Part shown: piece by piece, positions 6,836 to 38,634 of the stretch
Numbering within the stretch: the stretch's first letter is position 1
Layout of the letters: each line of letters starts with the position of its first letter
Source of the DNA: a virus
Reading direction: 5' to 3' (one strand)
DNA length: 64,000 nt
Virus record (IMG/VR): IMGVR_UViG_3300043409_001491
Location: 41,902-105,901 of that record
Notes under the pieces: generated by a model
Seen by the model: the letters and a program-made list of their open reading frames with translations, nothing else
What the model was told of the DNA's origin: nothing
Database searches by the model: none
Position numbers and translations under genes: made by a program

Positions 6836-6844
6836 TGGTATAAT
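6815..6844 (+). promoter_or_regulatory. Promoter giving a leaderless mRNA for the gene at 6851
   Basis: TTGAAA (6815-6820), an 18-bp spacer ending TGG, and TATAAT (6839-6844). The ATG at 6851 lies exactly where +1 is expected, so the transcript should start at the start codon. Confidence 0.8.
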
Positions 6845-7652: not shown

Positions 7653-7661
7653 TGATATAAT
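7653..7661 (+). promoter_or_regulatory. Extended -10 promoter giving a leaderless mRNA at 7668
   Basis: TGATATAAT is followed by 6 nt and then the ATG at 7668. No ribosome-binding site lies between them. The -35 region is poor, as expected for an extended -10 promoter. Confidence 0.75.
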
Positions 7662-30041: not shown

Positions 30042-30677
30042 ATGGCTTATAGTCGTGGAACATCAACCAACATTATCGTTGGTGCTGCAGCATTCTTTAT
30101 GGCAGACTCAACTTTAGTACCAACAGTAACTCCATCATTCGTATCATCAGACTCATATAGAGAGACTCTATCTGCATCTGCAACATATGACAATGTGGGC
30201 TACACAACCAACGGACTTGAAATGCAGTTCCAACCAGACTTCGGTGAAGTCCAGGTAGACCAGATTCTTGACGTTGCGAAACTTTACAAGCAGGGAATGC
30301 AAGTTAGCGTTGCAACTGCTTTTGCTGAAGCCACTCTAGAGAACCTTCTATTGGCTCTAGCAGGCAGCAATGATGATTTGACTGGAACAAAGTCTTCATC
30401 TACTGGACGTATCTTGAACCTTTCTGCAGGAGACTTGGGCGAATGTCCAGTTGAGCGTGGTATCGTTGCGGTAGGACCAGGAACAGGCGACTGTGAAGAT
30501 TCTGCTGCAGTAGAGCGTGTATACATTGGATACCGTGCTCTATCAATTGAAAACGTAACAGTTTCAGCAAAGCGTGATGAGGCTTCAATGTTTGAAGTAT
30601 CATTCCGTCTTCTACCAGAAGACACATCAGGTGCATACGGCAAGATCATTGACCGTACACACACAGTTACATCATAA
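30042..30677 (+). CDS. Major tail tube protein (inferred)
   Basis: A 211-residue protein with the length and strand pattern of siphophage tail-tube subunits: an N-terminal segment MAYSRGTSTNIIVGAAAFFMADS, then repeated strands (TNGLEMQFQPDFGEVQVDQILDVA ... VERGIVAVGPGTGDC ... RVYIGYRALSIENVTVSAKRDEASMFEVSFRLLPE). Its codon choice looks more biased to GGT/CGT/ATC than that of its neighbours, as in abundant proteins. It has a private promoter with a conventional leader and a private terminator, which also fits high output. It precedes the two chaperone-like genes and the tape measure, the canonical position of the tail tube. Confidence 0.8.
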   Translation: MAYSRGTSTNIIVGAAAFFMADSTLVPTVTPSFVSSDSYRETLSASATYDNVGYTTNGLEMQFQPDFGEVQVDQILDVAKLYKQGMQVSVATAFAEATLENLLLALAGSNDDLTGTKSSSTGRILNLSAGDLGECPVERGIVAVGPGTGDCEDSAAVERVYIGYRALSIENVTVSAKRDEASMFEVSFRLLPEDTSGAYGKIIDRTHTVTS

Positions 30678-30710: not shown

Positions 30711-30713
30711 TAG

Positions 30714-30743
30714 CCCACTTCCTTAATTGGAGGTGGGTTTTTT
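30714..30743 (+). terminator. Intrinsic terminator after the tail-tube gene
   Basis: CCCACTTCC (30714-30722) pairs with GGAGGTGGG (30729-30737) with one G.U pair, a 6-nt loop and a TTTTTT tract at 30738-30743. Confidence 0.9.
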
Positions 30744-30748
30744 GTTTG

Positions 30749-30757
30749 TGGTAGAAT
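30749..30757 (+). promoter_or_regulatory. Extended -10 promoter next to the chaperone start codon
   Basis: TGGTAGAAT is followed by 8 nt and the ATG at 30766, with no ribosome-binding site between. It stands directly after the terminator and predicts a near-leaderless mRNA. Confidence 0.65.
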
Positions 30758-30765
30758 TAAGTATA

Positions 30766-31476
30766 ATGGCAACCAGAATATACAAAAATCAAACAATATC
30801 TTTGTTTAATGGGAAAGAATTAGAAATCATACCATTAAAGATAAGATATCTTCGTGAATTTATGGAAGTATTTAAAGATATCAAACAGGCCAAAGATGAT
30901 GATGAATCTATTGCTGTATTAGTAGAGTGTGTTCGTATATGCATGAAACAATATTACCCAGAAATATCATCTAGCACTGCAGACATAGAAGATAATTTTG
31001 ATATGCCCACCATCTATAAAATACTAGATACCTCTGCTGGAATTAATATTAATGAAAAATCAGAGGAGCCCGTAAAAAATCAAGCAGAAAAAAGTGGGGA
31101 AACCTGGGAAACATTAGATTTAGCAAAACTTGAGGCAGAGGTATTTTTGCTGGGTATCTGGAAAGATTATCAAGAACTAGAAACGTCTTTATCAATGCCA
31201 GAACTAATGATGACCCTTGAAGTAATTAGAGAGTTAGATTACTCAGAAAAGAAGTTTCTTGCAGCAATTCAAGGCGTGGATTTAGACGGGGATAAAAATC
31301 AAAATAAAGGTCAAAAAGAATGGGAAGACATGAAAGCAAGAGTCTTTAGTGGTGGTAAAGCAACAGATAGCAATGATGTCTTGGCTTTACAAGGAGTTAA
31401 TGCTCAAAAAGCAGGGTTTGGAATTGGCATGGGGCTAGACTATGGCGATCAAAGAGACCCTAATGTGATGAAGTAA
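30766..31476 (+). CDS. Tail assembly chaperone, long form (GT-like)
   Basis: A 236-residue protein. Residues 1-95 (LFNGKELEIIPLKIRYLREFMEVF ... LVECVRICMKQYYPEI ... PTIYKILDTSAGI) are clearly homologous to the next, shorter gene. After ~100 the sequence becomes a charged, helical extension (ETWETLDLAKLEAEVFLLGIWKDYQELETSLSMPELMMTLEVIRELDYSEKKFLAAI). This is the architecture of the longer tail chaperone product (lambda gpGT), which recruits tail-tube subunits to the tape measure. Here the two versions are separate genes. The in-frame GTG/ATG region upstream to 30727 lies inside the terminator and is not used. It is positioned directly upstream of the tape measure region. Confidence 0.75.
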   Translation: MATRIYKNQTISLFNGKELEIIPLKIRYLREFMEVFKDIKQAKDDDESIAVLVECVRICMKQYYPEISSSTADIEDNFDMPTIYKILDTSAGININEKSEEPVKNQAEKSGETWETLDLAKLEAEVFLLGIWKDYQELETSLSMPELMMTLEVIRELDYSEKKFLAAIQGVDLDGDKNQNKGQKEWEDMKARVFSGGKATDSNDVLALQGVNAQKAGFGIGMGLDYGDQRDPNVMK

Positions 31477-31508
31477 AAAAATGAAACAACTTAAAAATAG
31501 CCTATTTG

Positions 31509-31517
31509 TGCTATAAT
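31509..31517 (+). promoter_or_regulatory. Extended -10 promoter before the short chaperone gene
   Basis: TGCTATAAT is followed by TAGGAGG (31530-31536) and the ATG at 31542; the short form is thus made from its own promoter with a strong ribosome-binding site. Confidence 0.72.
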
Positions 31518-31541
31518 TAACATAACTTATAGGAGGAACAA

Positions 31542-31859
31542 ATGTCAACAACCGTACATGAGACTGAAAAAGTCAAACTCATTGATGGAACAGAGATAAC
31601 CGTTCGCCCCCTTAAGATCTCACTTCTTCGTCCTTTCATGAAGAAGTTTGAAGGGGTGGCAAAAGTTGCGGAAGATAACGAGAAGTCTATGACTCTTCTT
31701 GTTGAGTGCGTCCAGATTGCTATGCAGCAATACAAGCCAGAATTGGCTGGAGACGTAGCAAAGTTGGAAGATCTACTTGATTTACCAACAGTTTACAAAA
31801 TTGTAGAAGCAGCATCAGGTATTAACCTGACAGCAGTTTCTGATATTCTGGCAAACTAG
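31542..31859 (+). CDS. Tail assembly chaperone, short form (G-like paralogue)
   Basis: A 105-residue protein almost entirely collinear with the N-terminal domain of the preceding gene. Shared features include PLKI-LLR-FM, D-E-S---LVECV-I-M-QY-PE, ED--D-PTVYKI and ASGIN. It ends where the homology ends, so it corresponds to the short (G-like) product that most siphophages make in excess over a frameshifted long form. I looked for a slippery sequence near its 3' end and found none obvious. It has its own promoter and AGGAGG site, which fits a higher output than the long form. The tape measure gene begins 31 bp downstream. Confidence 0.75.
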   Translation: MSTTVHETEKVKLIDGTEITVRPLKISLLRPFMKKFEGVAKVAEDNEKSMTLLVECVQIAMQQYKPELAGDVAKLEDLLDLPTVYKIVEAASGINLTAVSDILAN

Positions 31860-31890: not shown

Positions 31891-34800
31891 GTGGCTGATG
31901 TCAATGCTAATATTGATATAAACATTGACTCGTCCAATGCGATATCGCAACTTAAGTCTTTACAAAGACAGATATCTCAGTTTCACACCTCTATTGCAAA
32001 ATCTAGCGAGTCGGCAGCATTAGCCCAAAGAGGTCTAGAAAAAAATCTACTTAATAGCATAAACTCTATTGGGTCTTTTTCTGCAGAATTACGCACAGTA
32101 AAAACAACTGCGGAGTCTTTTACTACAGCCCTTGAAGGAAACAAATTCTCAATGCGAGAATACTTCCGTTATGCGGGGGGATCAACTAAAACTTTTGGTA
32201 AATTATTTAGATCAGAATTTGACACAATTGGCAAGGTAGCAGAAGAGCGAGTAAAGAAACTACAAACCCAGTATATTAAAATGGGGCGTGACACTACTGG
32301 AGCAATGAAGGCAATTGCAGTAATGCCAAAATCTTTGGACATGTCAGATTACAATACAAAGATACAGGTAGCAGCACAAAAACAAGCATTATTTAATCAA
32401 TTAATGAAACAAGGTTCTACCAACCTATTGAACTTTGGTAAGAATACACAGTGGGCAGGCCGCCAGTTAATGGTTGGTTTTACAATTCCTTTGACTATTC
32501 TTGGAAGCACTGCATCAAAAACATTTATGGAGATGGAAGCCCAGGCACTTAAATTTAAAAAGGTTTATGGAGATCTCTTTACCCCACAAGCAGAAACTCA
32601 AGCAGCATTAGATGGCATTACAGAACTTGGGCAGATGTTTACAAAGTATGGGGTGGCAGTATCTTCTACTGTTGGCTTAGCAGCAGAAGCCGCTGCCGCT
32701 GGTTTCCAGGGATTAGACTTACAACGTCAAACAACAGAAGCAACAAGACTTTCTATCCTGGGTCAAATAGAAAATACCAAAGCCCTTGAAACAACCATAT
32801 CACTTCAAAATGCCTTTGGCATGTCCTCTGATAAACTTGCAGACTCAATTAACTTTCTTAACGCAGTAGAAAACCAGACAGTTGTATCACTTGATGATAT
32901 TACAACTGCAATTCCAAAAGTTGCTCCAGTTATTCAGCAACTTGGTGGAGACGTAAAAGATTTAACATTCTTTATTGCAGCAATGAAAGAGGGTGGAATT
33001 AATGCATCAGAGGGCGCTAACGCACTTAAGTCTGGCCTTGCAGCATTAATTAATCCAACCAGAAAAGCCAATGCAATGCTTTCTCAATTTGGAATTAACG
33101 CTAGAGAGATTGTTGTAAAAAATAAAGGTAACTTAAAGGCAACAGTCGTTGAATTTGCAACAGCATTAAATCAACTTGATCCACTCAATAGAGCACAGGC
33201 AATTGAACAGATGTTTGGTAAGTTCCAGTTTGCTCGTTTATCAACTCTGTTTGCAAACGTGGCTAAAGATGGAAACCAGGCTTCTCGCGTTCTTGATTTG
33301 GCAAACTCATCTGTAGAGGAACTTTCAGCCTTATCTGAAAGAGAATTAGGCATGACCGCTGAATCTTCAATGAACAAATTTAAAAAGGCTGTTGAAGATT
33401 TAAAGTTTGCTCTTATCCCAGTTGGCAAGGCATTCCTAGAAGCCGTAACCCCAATTGCAGAATTTGTTGGAAACATACTAAGTAAATTTAATGACTTGTC
33501 TGCTGGATCAAAAAAAGCAATCACACTTCTTGTTACAGTAATTGGTGGTTTAGGTCCAGTACTCCTTATGACATTTGGTTTGCTTGCAAATGGTGTTGCT
33601 AATATAATTAAACTATTCTTGACTCTTCGTCAAGGGTATCAAAGGTTAACTGGACAGTCTCAAGTACTTGGTGAACAAACACAATACTTAACAATGGAGC
33701 AATTAGATGCTGCCGCCGTTGCTCACTCACTTGATCAGGCACATGCTAAATTAACTCAAAGATTTACTCTTGAAGCAGAGGCTTTAAATAAATTAATTAT
33801 TGCTTATCAGTCTGCAGCAACAGCGGGACAAAGATTTGCAATGAACAACCCAGGCATGATGTTGCCACCTAGAGCCCCAAAGAAATTAGCAAGCGGTATT
33901 GTAAGTGTTCCAGGCAGCGGTAATAAAGATACAGTTCCTGCAATGCTTGCTCCAGGAGAAGCAGTTATCCCATCAAAATTTGCAAAGAAGTATGCTCCAC
34001 TAATTCAAGGAATGGTTGCTGGAAACATACCTGGGTACAAAGAGGGAGTCGTAAGAGACCCTGGATCTGGATCAGCAGGAAGAGTTGGAAAAGTTGTTCC
34101 AACAGTTGTTCGTCCATATTCTTCAAACGTTGGAGCCACTAAAGGTTTGGTTGACTTTTTAAATATTGATCCAGGAAATACAGCAGACGTTGTTAGTCTT
34201 TATACAAAACAAATATTAGAAGAAGCAAAAGTATCAGCACAATCTGTAGTTGTTGAAATTAACAAATGGAGACAAAACAACATGGCTGCTTTACAAAAAG
34301 CAGCAGCAGCAGTAAATGCTGGAGCAGATGCAACAACAGAGTTTGGACCATTGGTAAGCAAATTTAATCAAGATATGGAAACCGCACAGGGCCCATTTAG
34401 TCAATTTGCTAAAACTGCACAAACAATGGCTCCTAAATTATCAAAAGATTTAGTTGAAGCACAACAAAAAGCAAAAGAATTAAATTTAAATGTTAAAAAT
34501 GCTGCAGATGCTGTCAAACTTTCACAAGAATTACCAAACAATGTAATTGCTTCTAATTTGTCAAAACCAGGAAATTTTTCACAATACTCAAAAATTAGAG
34601 CAGGAGCAGGTTCTAGATTTGGAGATGACAAAGGCATTGAGTCTATGGGAATTCCTAGATTTATGTTGCCAGATATGCACCCTAGCGAAAGAGCATACAA
34701 GTTGGGAACATCTCAAGAACACGTAAGTTCTTCTGTTCAACAACAAGAGCAAGCCATAAGATTAAAAGCAGAAAGAAGCGCAAGAAAAAATGCTAGTGTG

Positions 34801-37800
34801 TATCAATCAGAAGTTGAAAAAAATACAACAGATATTTATCCTGCAACAAGAGAAAGAACTAGCCCACACAAACTTGCAGCACAAGACGGCAAAGATGATG
34901 CAAATGCCTATGAGAATGCAAAACAAACTGCAACCAAACAAAGACGACGTTCTGATAGACCACAGGGACCACCATCAATAGGTCTTGGAGCAATTGGACC
35001 TGGAGCAACAATTAGCCCAGCAGGATTGCAATCAGTTGTAAATGAAACAAGAGCAAGACAGACTGCTACAGAAAAACTTGGTAAACTTAATGGCGCAATT
35101 ATGGGCGGTACCTTTGCATTAACATCCCTTGCCAGCGCGGGATCAATGGCTTCAGGACCACTAGGAGACTTATCTCAACAGGTAATGAAATATTCAGGAT
35201 TGCTTTTTGGATTAATGTCTATAACTCAGTTACTTACTCAAGCAAAGGTTACAGACTTAGTTGCAACAAGAGCAGGCACTGTTGCAACAGCAATGGGCGG
35301 AACTGGTTTTAAATCCTTGTTTTCTAAAGGCGGAGGCCTTGCTGGATTTGGTAAAAACTTATTAACTGCTGGCAAATTTCTTTTAAGATTCCTTGGACCA
35401 ATTGGACTTGTAACAACAGGATTACTTGCTGCATATTCAGTTATTAAAATGGTAAATGCCGCTAGAGAGCGTGAAAGATTAGCGATTGAGGGCCTTGGCG
35501 ATGCCATGGCTACAACAACCTCTCAAGTAAAAACACTTGGAGAGTTTTTTGGTGTGCTTCCCAAAAAGTTACCATTTGATCTTCGTCAAACAGAAATAGT
35601 TTCCGCACCCGTTAGAACACAAAGAGAAAACTTAAAAGCAAGTCCAGAATTTCAAAAAGAGTTTAAGTCAACGATTGAGTCATTAAGAAAAGCAACTAAT
35701 GAAGAAGCAAAGATTGTTTTTTCTAGTTTAGCACTTAACCTTCAAGCACAAGGATTTGCAAAAGATCAAGTTCAAGTAATTGTTGATGCTCTTCGTGAAG
35801 AGTCATCGCAAACCGATGTAACCTTAGATGTAAAATCTTTAAATCTTTCTAAAGAATCTCTTGATAAATTAAAGAAAGATTTTGATCCACTGCTAGTTAG
35901 TTTAAATAAAGCATTAAGTGATGGTATAACTAAAAAACTTGTAGGTGGCGGTGGTGCTAAAGGTGCTTCAGCGCCTCTTCAAGAGATTATACTATTAAAT
36001 AAAAACGCACAAAAACAACTTGAAACTACATCTCAGTTTATATCCGAGACATCAAAGTCTGCATCAGGAATGTTTCAACTTGGATTAATTGATGGAAAAA
36101 CATATGAAGCAACTATAAGTGCAATTTTAGAAAGAACAAATGGACTAGACGAAGCACAAAGAAAAATTCTTTTAAATGATGTTTTTAAAAAACTTGGAGT
36201 ATCAGCAACTGCGCTTAATGGTGTTTTAGGGGACACTGTAAAAGAAATGAGACTTCTTGCCTTAATGTCTTCTGGAATCCTTGGTAAAGATAGTCCAGTA
36301 TTAAAAGGACTTCAAGCACCAAAAGGAACAAAAGAATACCAAAATGCTTTAATTCAAATAACAAGATTATACGATAAAATGTTTGGAGCAATTGAAAAGG
36401 CTTCTAAGGTAGAACCTAAACCCTTTAATCCAAATGCTGGAGGGGCAGCAGGTGAACTATCTGAAATACAAAAAGCAATCAATAGCCTTAAAGAAAAAAC
36501 TAAACAAATTCTTGATCAATCAGCAGCATATAAGATTCTTAGGGATAACAACTATGATGCAGCAACAGCAGCAGAGTTAGCAGCAGACTCTTTAGTTGCT
36601 GCAGCCCTTGCTTCAGGCGCAATCAAGGCTGGAACAGAAAAATGGAAAGAATTTTTAGAAGCAATTAAAAAAGCAAAGAATGCCCTAGCCGTAGAGCCAG
36701 CAAACAAAGCAAGTCAAAAATTTGATACAGACAAACTAGCAATAGAGGCACAGACAAAGGCAATGAGAACCTTGCTTGCTGCTGGGTATGATGCAGCAGA
36801 AGCATTAGACATTGTTGGAGATGCAGACCTTGTAGCGTTAATAAATAATTCAGAAGCAGCGGGTCTTACATTTGATCAGGTAAAAGAAAAAATTGACAGT
36901 GCTGCAGAAGCCATTAAGAATCTTAAAAACCTTGGTAATCCATTTGCCGCAATTGAAGAACAAACTGAAAAATTTGAAAAAGCCTTTGCTGCAGCCATGG
37001 AAAAATTTAGAATTGAAGAAGAAAAGGCTAAAAAGAAATTTCAGCCAGGCATTGATCGAGCACAGGCTGAAGTTGATAGAATACAAAAAATAATTGATGG
37101 CATTAATAAAACAATTGATGGATTACAAACAAAAATTAAAGACAAACAACGCGGCATTGAAGAAAATATAACTAGAGAAGTTGAAAAATTTGAAGATAGT
37201 ATTAAGGTAATTGAAGATAAGATTAAAGCAGAATTTGATTCCCCACTTGAAAAACTTTCTAGTGAGTCAGAGGTTTTATCTCACAACCTTGAATTAATAG
37301 ACCATCAATCAGAAGCAATTAACTCTAAGTATGACCTGCAAGCAGAAGCCCTACAAAAAGTCTCTGACATTAATTCAGATATAGCAGATCAACAACAGAA
37401 ACAACTTGGCCTTGCAGATGCTTTATCTCGTGGAGACATTTCTGCAGCAGCAGCAGCAGCGCAAGATATGAGGGCAGGATCTGCTGCAAGGGCTGCATCT
37501 GCTCAAAGCGGATTCCTTGATTCTGGACGTAAAGCAGAGTTGGCTGCCCTTACTGCTGGCGGTATGACAAGACTAAAAATTGAAGAGCGTCAATATCAAA
37601 TAGGACAAGAGCAATATAAACTTGAACAAGGTCGCAAACTTTTACAAAAAGAAATTTCAGATATTCAAGAATTTAAAATAGAGCCATTACTTGAAGAGCA
37701 AAAAAGAATAGAACTTGATATTCGTGATATTGAAGATGAAATCTATAAATTAGAAAATGCTCAAACAAACAGTTTAAGATCAAATAACATTGAATTAGAT

Positions 37801-38634
37801 GCTGCAAAGATTGCATTAGATGAAGCAAATGGAAAACTTCAAGAGGCTCTTGATAAAATTGCTGATCAAAAAAAGGTTTGGGAAGATGCTAAGTTTGGAA
37901 TTGATGAAGCAAAAAATTCTGTTGATATTTTAAATACATCTTTAGAAGAAACACTTAGGCTTGCAGAGGCAATCGCTGCAGCGTATGCAAGTATGGGCAG
38001 TGGAGATTTCTCAACAAGTGGATCATTTACTTCAGACGATAAAGCATTTGAAAGTTTTATAAGTATAGTTGAAGCACTTGATGCAGCACAAGCAGCATTT
38101 GATGCAGCAGTTGAAAGTGGAAACATGTATGCAGTTAGAAATGCTGGAGTAAGACTTGCAGCAGCACAAGCGGCCTACGACGCAACCCTTCCAACTGGAG
38201 GCGGTGGTGGTGGCGGTGGCAACAGTTTGCTTATGATGTCTTCTGGCGGTATGGTTCCAAAATATATGGCATATGGTGGAATGTCTATGGGGTCAGACAC
38301 AGTTCCAGCAATGCTAACTCCTGGCGAGTTTGTAATGAATAAAAAAGCAACTAAGGCTTTTGGCCCAGCACTTGCTGCCATGAATTCTTCTAAATACCCA
38401 TCAATGATGACTAAAGGTTTAAGTTCCCCTACCTATCAAACCTCAGCAACTAATATTAGTGCCCCCTCAAATGTATCAAACTCAACTTCTGTAAACAACA
38501 ACTCCAGTTCAGTGTATAATTATAGTGTAGGAATTAATGTTGGTGGATCTAATGCAAACCCTCAAGATATTGCAAGGGCCGTTATGACACAGATTAAAAA
38601 TGTTGATTCACAGAGAATTAGGACGCAGAGGTAA
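31891..38634 (+). CDS. Tape measure protein
   Basis: A 2247-residue protein starting at GTG (MADVNANIDINIDSSNAISQ), with GAGGTG upstream. Residues ~175-460 match the PhageMin_Tail-type tape measure domain (TVGLAAEAAAAGFQGLDLQRQ ... VAPVIQQLGGDVKDLTFFIAAMKEGGINASEGANALKSGL). Hydrophobic segments lie at ~543-577 and ~1162-1188. Long coiled coils fill much of ~1690-2020. A 'DTVPAML-PGE' motif occurs twice, at ~676-700 and ~2133-2155. At ~1.5 angstrom per residue the length predicts a tail of about 330-340 nm. The protein sets tail length and is ejected with the DNA. Confidence 0.93.
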   Translation: MADVNANIDINIDSSNAISQLKSLQRQISQFHTSIAKSSESAALAQRGLEKNLLNSINSIGSFSAELRTVKTTAESFTTALEGNKFSMREYFRYAGGSTKTFGKLFRSEFDTIGKVAEERVKKLQTQYIKMGRDTTGAMKAIAVMPKSLDMSDYNTKIQVAAQKQALFNQLMKQGSTNLLNFGKNTQWAGRQLMVGFTIPLTILGSTASKTFMEMEAQALKFKKVYGDLFTPQAETQAALDGITELGQMFTKYGVAVSSTVGLAAEAAAAGFQGLDLQRQTTEATRLSILGQIENTKALETTISLQNAFGMSSDKLADSINFLNAVENQTVVSLDDITTAIPKVAPVIQQLGGDVKDLTFFIAAMKEGGINASEGANALKSGLAALINPTRKANAMLSQFGINAREIVVKNKGNLKATVVEFATALNQLDPLNRAQAIEQMFGKFQFARLSTLFANVAKDGNQASRVLDLANSSVEELSALSERELGMTAESSMNKFKKAVEDLKFALIPVGKAFLEAVTPIAEFVGNILSKFNDLSAGSKKAITLLVTVIGGLGPVLLMTFGLLANGVANIIKLFLTLRQGYQRLTGQSQVLGEQTQYLTMEQLDAAAVAHSLDQAHAKLTQRFTLEAEALNKLIIAYQSAATAGQRFAMNNPGMMLPPRAPKKLASGIVSVPGSGNKDTVPAMLAPGEAVIPSKFAKKYAPLIQGMVAGNIPGYKEGVVRDPGSGSAGRVGKVVPTVVRPYSSNVGATKGLVDFLNIDPGNTADVVSLYTKQILEEAKVSAQSVVVEINKWRQNNMAALQKAAAAVNAGADATTEFGPLVSKFNQDMETAQGPFSQFAKTAQTMAPKLSKDLVEAQQKAKELNLNVKNAADAVKLSQELPNNVIASNLSKPGNFSQYSKIRAGAGSRFGDDKGIESMGIPRFMLPDMHPSERAYKLGTSQEHVSSSVQQQEQAIRLKAERSARKNASVYQSEVEKNTTDIYPATRERTSPHKLAAQDGKDDANAYENAKQTATKQRRRSDRPQGPPSIGLGAIGPGATISPAGLQSVVNETRARQTATEKLGKLNGAIMGGTFALTSLASAGSMASGPLGDLSQQVMKYSGLLFGLMSITQLLTQAKVTDLVATRAGTVATAMGGTGFKSLFSKGGGLAGFGKNLLTAGKFLLRFLGPIGLVTTGLLAAYSVIKMVNAARERERLAIEGLGDAMATTTSQVKTLGEFFGVLPKKLPFDLRQTEIVSAPVRTQRENLKASPEFQKEFKSTIESLRKATNEEAKIVFSSLALNLQAQGFAKDQVQVIVDALREESSQTDVTLDVKSLNLSKESLDKLKKDFDPLLVSLNKALSDGITKKLVGGGGAKGASAPLQEIILLNKNAQKQLETTSQFISETSKSASGMFQLGLIDGKTYEATISAILERTNGLDEAQRKILLNDVFKKLGVSATALNGVLGDTVKEMRLLALMSSGILGKDSPVLKGLQAPKGTKEYQNALIQITRLYDKMFGAIEKASKVEPKPFNPNAGGAAGELSEIQKAINSLKEKTKQILDQSAAYKILRDNNYDAATAAELAADSLVAAALASGAIKAGTEKWKEFLEAIKKAKNALAVEPANKASQKFDTDKLAIEAQTKAMRTLLAAGYDAAEALDIVGDADLVALINNSEAAGLTFDQVKEKIDSAAEAIKNLKNLGNPFAAIEEQTEKFEKAFAAAMEKFRIEEEKAKKKFQPGIDRAQAEVDRIQKIIDGINKTIDGLQTKIKDKQRGIEENITREVEKFEDSIKVIEDKIKAEFDSPLEKLSSESEVLSHNLELIDHQSEAINSKYDLQAEALQKVSDINSDIADQQQKQLGLADALSRGDISAAAAAAQDMRAGSAARAASAQSGFLDSGRKAELAALTAGGMTRLKIEERQYQIGQEQYKLEQGRKLLQKEISDIQEFKIEPLLEEQKRIELDIRDIEDEIYKLENAQTNSLRSNNIELDAAKIALDEANGKLQEALDKIADQKKVWEDAKFGIDEAKNSVDILNTSLEETLRLAEAIAAAYASMGSGDFSTSGSFTSDDKAFESFISIVEALDAAQAAFDAAVESGNMYAVRNAGVRLAAAQAAYDATLPTGGGGGGGGNSLLMMSSGGMVPKYMAYGGMSMGSDTVPAMLTPGEFVMNKKATKAFGPALAAMNSSKYPSMMTKGLSSPTYQTSATNISAPSNVSNSTSVNNNSSSVYNYSVGINVGGSNANPQDIARAVMTQIKNVDSQRIRTQR

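Follow-up and report, generated by a model that had tools for sequence, protein, structure and literature searches.

Two adjacent genes in the window (the whole 64,000-nucleotide stretch analysed here, which is part of an IMG/VR virus record of 105,901 bases) very probably encode the phage tail assembly chaperones GT and G, with an excess of G that is probably set by expression signals and a ratio that we infer from them. The products, LONG and SHORT, are homologous, and their genes lie between the major tail protein gene and the tape measure gene. The slip site has been lost, the expression signals are conserved and the two-gene state is a derived one. Both open reading frames sit where an earlier note on this DNA had placed them, and the features of the locus are as follows.

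30042..30677, + strand: major tail (tube) protein gene, the upstream neighbour (phrog_2175, E 6e-35; phrog_885, major tail protein, E 2e-4)
30712..30739, + strand: intrinsic terminator hairpin in the gap between the major tail protein gene and LONG (11 bp stem and T tail)
30749..30757, + strand: extended -10 promoter TGGTAGAAT of LONG, ending 8 nt before the ATG, with a leaderless mRNA predicted
30766..31476, + strand: LONG, in-frame G=T tail assembly chaperone, the gpGT equivalent (236 aa; phrog_10504 and phrog_10474)
31074..31080, + strand: A AAA AAT heptamer at the G/T junction of LONG and in its reading frame, unconserved and probably incidental
31102..31473, + strand: T domain of LONG (alignment and tblastn matches to Streptomyces phage T ORFs)
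31509..31517, + strand: extended -10 promoter TGCTATAAT of SHORT
31531..31536, + strand: AGGAGG Shine-Dalgarno of SHORT
31542..31859, + strand: SHORT, G-only tail assembly chaperone, the gpG equivalent (105 aa; phrog_10504, E 7e-21)
31891..38634, + strand: tape measure protein gene, the downstream neighbour (PF10145, E 5e-25; phrog_10030, tail length tape measure, E 1e-100)

That the domain of the short protein forms the N-terminus of the long one had been claimed before, and the two N-termini are clearly homologous: residues 1-100 of LONG align with residues 1-101 of SHORT at 42% identity and 72% positives (E = 1e-30). The same family, phrog_10504, is matched by LONG (E 1e-22) and by SHORT, and a second domain in LONG (residues 131-215) matches phrog_10474 (E 8e-14). 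SHORT shares 39-41% identity with Streptomyces phage proteins annotated as tail assembly chaperones, and the T part of LONG is homologous to the T ORF that these phages carry in the -1 frame (35-56% identity by tblastn). Between the T frame of phage EGole and the C-terminal region of LONG and its relatives, identity is 40-44%. The upstream neighbour likewise has an orthologue in Streptomyces phages that is annotated as "major tail protein". AF2 models, built on alignments of relatives, are of moderate confidence (mean pLDDT 72 and 63), and at that confidence they predict the same order of secondary structure in both N-domains, two strands followed by helices. The Foldseek neighbours of the LONG model include a viral tail assembly chaperone (E 2e-5) and GT of phage N15 (E 8e-3, probability 0.82); a fold search of the PDB with the AF2 models gave no match among solved structures. 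Matches of the profile to prion chains (E 0.2 to 1) and a weak match of LONG to the lectin family PF03388 (E 0.026) were put down to chance. LONG is not a sequencing or frame artefact, as the frame is open in about 140 distinct LONG sequences and dN/dS is 0.07; with a dN/dS of 0.10 for SHORT, both genes are under purifying selection.

A tblastn search with SHORT found relatives of G in 124 phage records, all from Streptomyces phages, and one with LONG found 131 records; in the Streptomyces records listed, G and T are separate pieces. In EGole, Bmoc, DekoNeimoidia and others, the G gene overlaps a downstream T frame at -1, and three of the records examined (Sham, Emma1919 and TunaTartare) have the frameshift join in their annotation. 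For classification, G- and T-domain HMMs were applied to every open forward frame of 333 loci, mostly from IMG/VR; since many of these are near-copies, counts of signals and slip sites are given on unique sequences. An in-frame G=T gene followed by a separate G gene, the order seen in the window, was found in 204 of the 333 loci, and a single G with T at -1 in 121. The remaining classified loci are cut by contig ends or by a split match. LONG without SHORT does not occur in any intact locus among the 333. The single-gene relatives with a slippery site that the earlier note proposed to look for are these 121 loci, which include a dozen cultured Streptomyces phages; the G relative is present in more than 120 records from cultured phages.

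The Stanwilliamsviridae (EGole, Bmoc, Sham, Emma1919, DekoNeimoidia and others) resemble the window in their homologous G and T, in the placement of these between the major tail protein and the tape measure, and in a terminator and a promoter/Shine-Dalgarno leader ahead of G. They differ in having a single G, with T at -1 behind CCCAAAY or CCCGGAA; the former site is that of Loccivirinae and freshwater relatives, the latter that of Boydwoodruffvirinae. In many deposited genomes of this family (L001 3001-3644, L168 1501-2153 and others) T is annotated as a gene of its own, either hypothetical or a chaperone, that begins at an internal start; the alignment favours a -1 frameshift instead. The G protein of Rhodococcus phage Francesca (L167 1471-2315) is longer, at 174 aa, and contains an internal insertion; a G GGA AAA stretch precedes the -1 T frame. 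What appeared to be a tandem G domain in this phage is one domain, split by the insertion into two HMM matches. Pseudomonas phage KT1 (L336), with a G-like ORF after a tail protein gene and no T-like match, proved too distant.

Among 66 unique overlaps from phages of the frameshift type, 57 carry CCCAAAC, CCCAAAT or GGGAAAC in frame, close to where the overlap begins; CCCGGAA takes this place in the remaining nine. By contrast with this lambda-type arrangement, in which T stands in another frame behind a conserved slip site, T is in frame in 204 loci; the layout is that of two-gene (T4-like) expression, with the short form and the in-frame long fusion on separate genes. No canonical in-frame heptamer is present at 108 of 123 unique G/T junctions of LONG (the 15 that occur are scattered), nor is a heptamer found at 109 of 123 unique 3' ends of SHORT. 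The earlier statement that no slippery site is obvious therefore stands in part: neither gene has a conserved one, but LONG of the window does hold A AAA AAT. This sequence fits the canonical X XXY YYZ pattern and lies in frame at the G/T junction, and it might send some ribosomes to the -1 frame and a nearby stop, yielding a second product of G length. We regard such residual frameshifting in LONG as very improbable, because most relatives read GTA AAA GAT at this position, because the separate SHORT gene already provides G in all of them, and because chance heptamer runs are to be expected in the A-rich junction region. Given the absence of conservation, A AAA AAT was rejected as a working slip site.

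Phylogenetic analysis of the G domain placed all LONG proteins in one clade (support 100/99) and all SHORT proteins in another (100/97). SHORT is nested among the single G proteins, beside those of loci L269, L273 and L291, and LONG, SHORT and the nearest single proteins group together (100/94), apart from the other single ones, including those of Streptomyces phages. Both the T tree and the combined tree of the major tail protein and the tape measure also place the two-gene phages inside the frameshift phages. The G, T and flanking-gene trees thus argue that the frameshift was lost rather than gained, and the idea that it had been replaced by two genes is upheld in that the two-gene state derives from the frameshift state. 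A single origin of the two-gene type is not rejected (p-AU 0.49). It might be argued that LONG was acquired laterally from another phage and settled beside a resident G gene, instead of arising by duplication in place. Its long branch would fit this, and a sister relationship of LONG and SHORT is neither favoured nor rejected (p-AU 0.38). However, the T domain of LONG falls with the frameshift phages closest to it in its own lineage, and the group that unites LONG and SHORT with those single G proteins is the well-supported one just mentioned, so that we consider lateral acquisition improbable. Locus L215, of the frameshift type, groups with the two-gene loci L136 and L310 by its neighbouring genes and not by its chaperones, which is likely to reflect module exchange. 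As L215 stands beside two fused loci only in the tree of the major tail protein and tape measure, some recombination is likely and a second event is possible.

The near-leaderless promoter reported for LONG is present: TGGTAGAAT, with TAGAAT (30752-30757) as its -10, lies 8 nt from the ATG, and there is no Shine-Dalgarno. A TATAAT at 30762-30767 was dismissed as the promoter of LONG, since it overlaps the ATG and so could not serve it. TA[AGT][ATG]AT ending 5-12 nt before the ATG is found in 78 of 100 unique LONG upstream regions (5.0 +/- 2.2 in shuffles) and the extended form TGnTAnnAT in 83; the Shine-Dalgarno is missing, with a median anti-SD pairing of -2.9 kcal/mol. In Mycobacterium tuberculosis, TANNNT has its centre 7-12 bp ahead of the transcription start and one gene in four is leaderless (PMC3898074), and the region upstream of LONG has the layout expected of leaderless genes there. 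The leaderless start of LONG is predicted from the -10 element. SHORT, as had also been reported, has its own promoter and AGGAGG. TGnTAnnAT occurs in 102 of 103 unique SHORT upstream regions, and AGGAGG is perfect in 85 of 101 (median pairing -10.2 kcal/mol). The TATAAT of SHORT mostly lies 23-28 nt before the ATG, as in single-G relatives, and its leader is that of the single G gene in freshwater frameshift phages, with the ancestral TATAAT and AGGAGG kept. A terminator-like hairpin precedes LONG in 99 of 100 unique loci and the single G gene in 75 of 77.

In each of 124 loci, SHORT scores above LONG in codon usage, measured as likeness to the major tail protein versus likeness to the tape measure. 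Together with the contrast between leaderless and Shine-Dalgarno starts, this suggests that the G excess is probably set by expression signals, with much SHORT and little LONG made. Control would then probably be translational at least as much as a matter of promoter strength. Leaderless mRNAs can be well translated in actinobacteria, and for this reason the ratio of SHORT to LONG may not be large. Elsewhere in the window, two further extended -10 boxes on the + strand, TGGTATAAT (6836-6844) and TGATATAAT (7653-7661), end about 6 nt before an ATG; leaderless genes may thus be usual in this phage, beside AGGAGG-led ones (26925, 46008).

Taken together, these features would be explained by the following course of events. 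In the ancestor, a single G gene would have carried a -1 slip site and been overlapped by a T frame, yielding much G and little GT. A tandem duplication in one freshwater lineage would then have copied G together with its promoter/leader. The upstream copy would have been fused in frame to T, giving LONG, and have lost its Shine-Dalgarno, to be read as a leaderless mRNA, while in the downstream copy, SHORT, the strong leader would have been retained and both T and the slip site lost. The order would be tandem copying, in-frame fusion, loss of the Shine-Dalgarno and loss of the slip site. The excess of G over GT would be set by a leaderless start and poor codons in LONG versus a strong Shine-Dalgarno and better codons in SHORT. 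By analogy with lambda, G would coat the tape measure and T would recruit the tail tube protein.

The two proteins may also have ceased to be a G/GT pair with a single job, the G domain of LONG having taken a different partner and SHORT alone coating the tape measure. The branch that leads to the LONG G domains is indeed long (0.88 changes per column), these domains have invariant residues of their own, and the G domains here are 42% identical, whereas in a frameshift phage they are necessarily identical. Yet LONG and SHORT both retain the domain layout and the family match, and their genes always co-occur; we therefore think such a loss of the shared job unlikely. A further reading is tentative and less likely than not: freed from the frameshift, the G domains may have specialised, SHORT as the abundant coat of the tape measure and LONG as a low-copy initiator with a partner surface of its own. 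If so, this would be a natural experiment in which identity of the G domains is dispensable for tail-length control.

A similar solution is known from T4. Its gp26 and gp51, which we take to be the T4 tail chaperones, both match PF12322, making them paralogues of one Pfam family, and their genes are on opposite strands. According to the passages of PMC10885494 that cite Vladimirov et al. 2022, some T4-like phages have a gene for the short form and another for a long fusion; the same report is also cited in PMC12859696 and PMC12846349. As far as these passages describe it, the likeness to the window consists in the lack of a frameshift and in a short form and a long fusion each having its own gene. 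T4 differs in belonging to a contractile-tailed group and in its protein family (neither LONG nor SHORT matches PF12322 at E up to 1); the genes of the window, unlike those of T4, are in tandem, with leaderless and Shine-Dalgarno starts and an identifiable frameshift ancestor. With gpG and gpGT of lambda and N15, the window shares a common N-terminal G domain, a longer product with a T domain and an adjoining tape measure gene, and the predicted fold of LONG matches N15 GT. In lambda, however, both products come from a -1 frameshift, at about 30:1 (PMC5009743), where the window uses two genes; a SHORT-rich, LONG-poor output, as suggested by the signals of the window, would give the same relation. 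A literature text search, with most subscription papers beyond its reach, found no such pair described for phages of actinobacteria. The kind of arrangement is thus already known from T4-like phages, and the case of the window is a separate, independent and more traceable variant.

It is a standing question why nearly all long-tailed phages retain a programmed frameshift for producing GT alongside G. The frameshift is widely conserved except in T4 (PMC5009743), and T4-like phages are the published exception that we found. Here, a large natural clade has exchanged the slip for two genes, its frameshift ancestor can be traced and relatives of that ancestor are in culture. The conserved signals suggest how this clade keeps the G:GT ratio, and also that selection keeps the ratio and not the frameshift itself. 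As free-standing proteins, LONG and SHORT can be expressed and tested apart. For annotation, the slip site should not be the sole thing sought when looking for chaperones.

A scan of genome contigs returned a single match, on a contig in a cyanobacterial MAG, which was uninformative as to the host. Locus L334 (contig CAINGU010000031.1, from a cyanobacterial MAG) bears a T domain of this family and is possibly a misbinned phage contig. The virus record that holds the window also encodes, outside the window (G000:C1:10285-10458), a WhiB-like protein (PF02467, E 3e-12). Along with structural genes related to those of Streptomyces Stanwilliamsviridae phages, it makes an actinobacterial host likely, and the two-gene group, a large set of freshwater viruses, probably has actinobacterial hosts.
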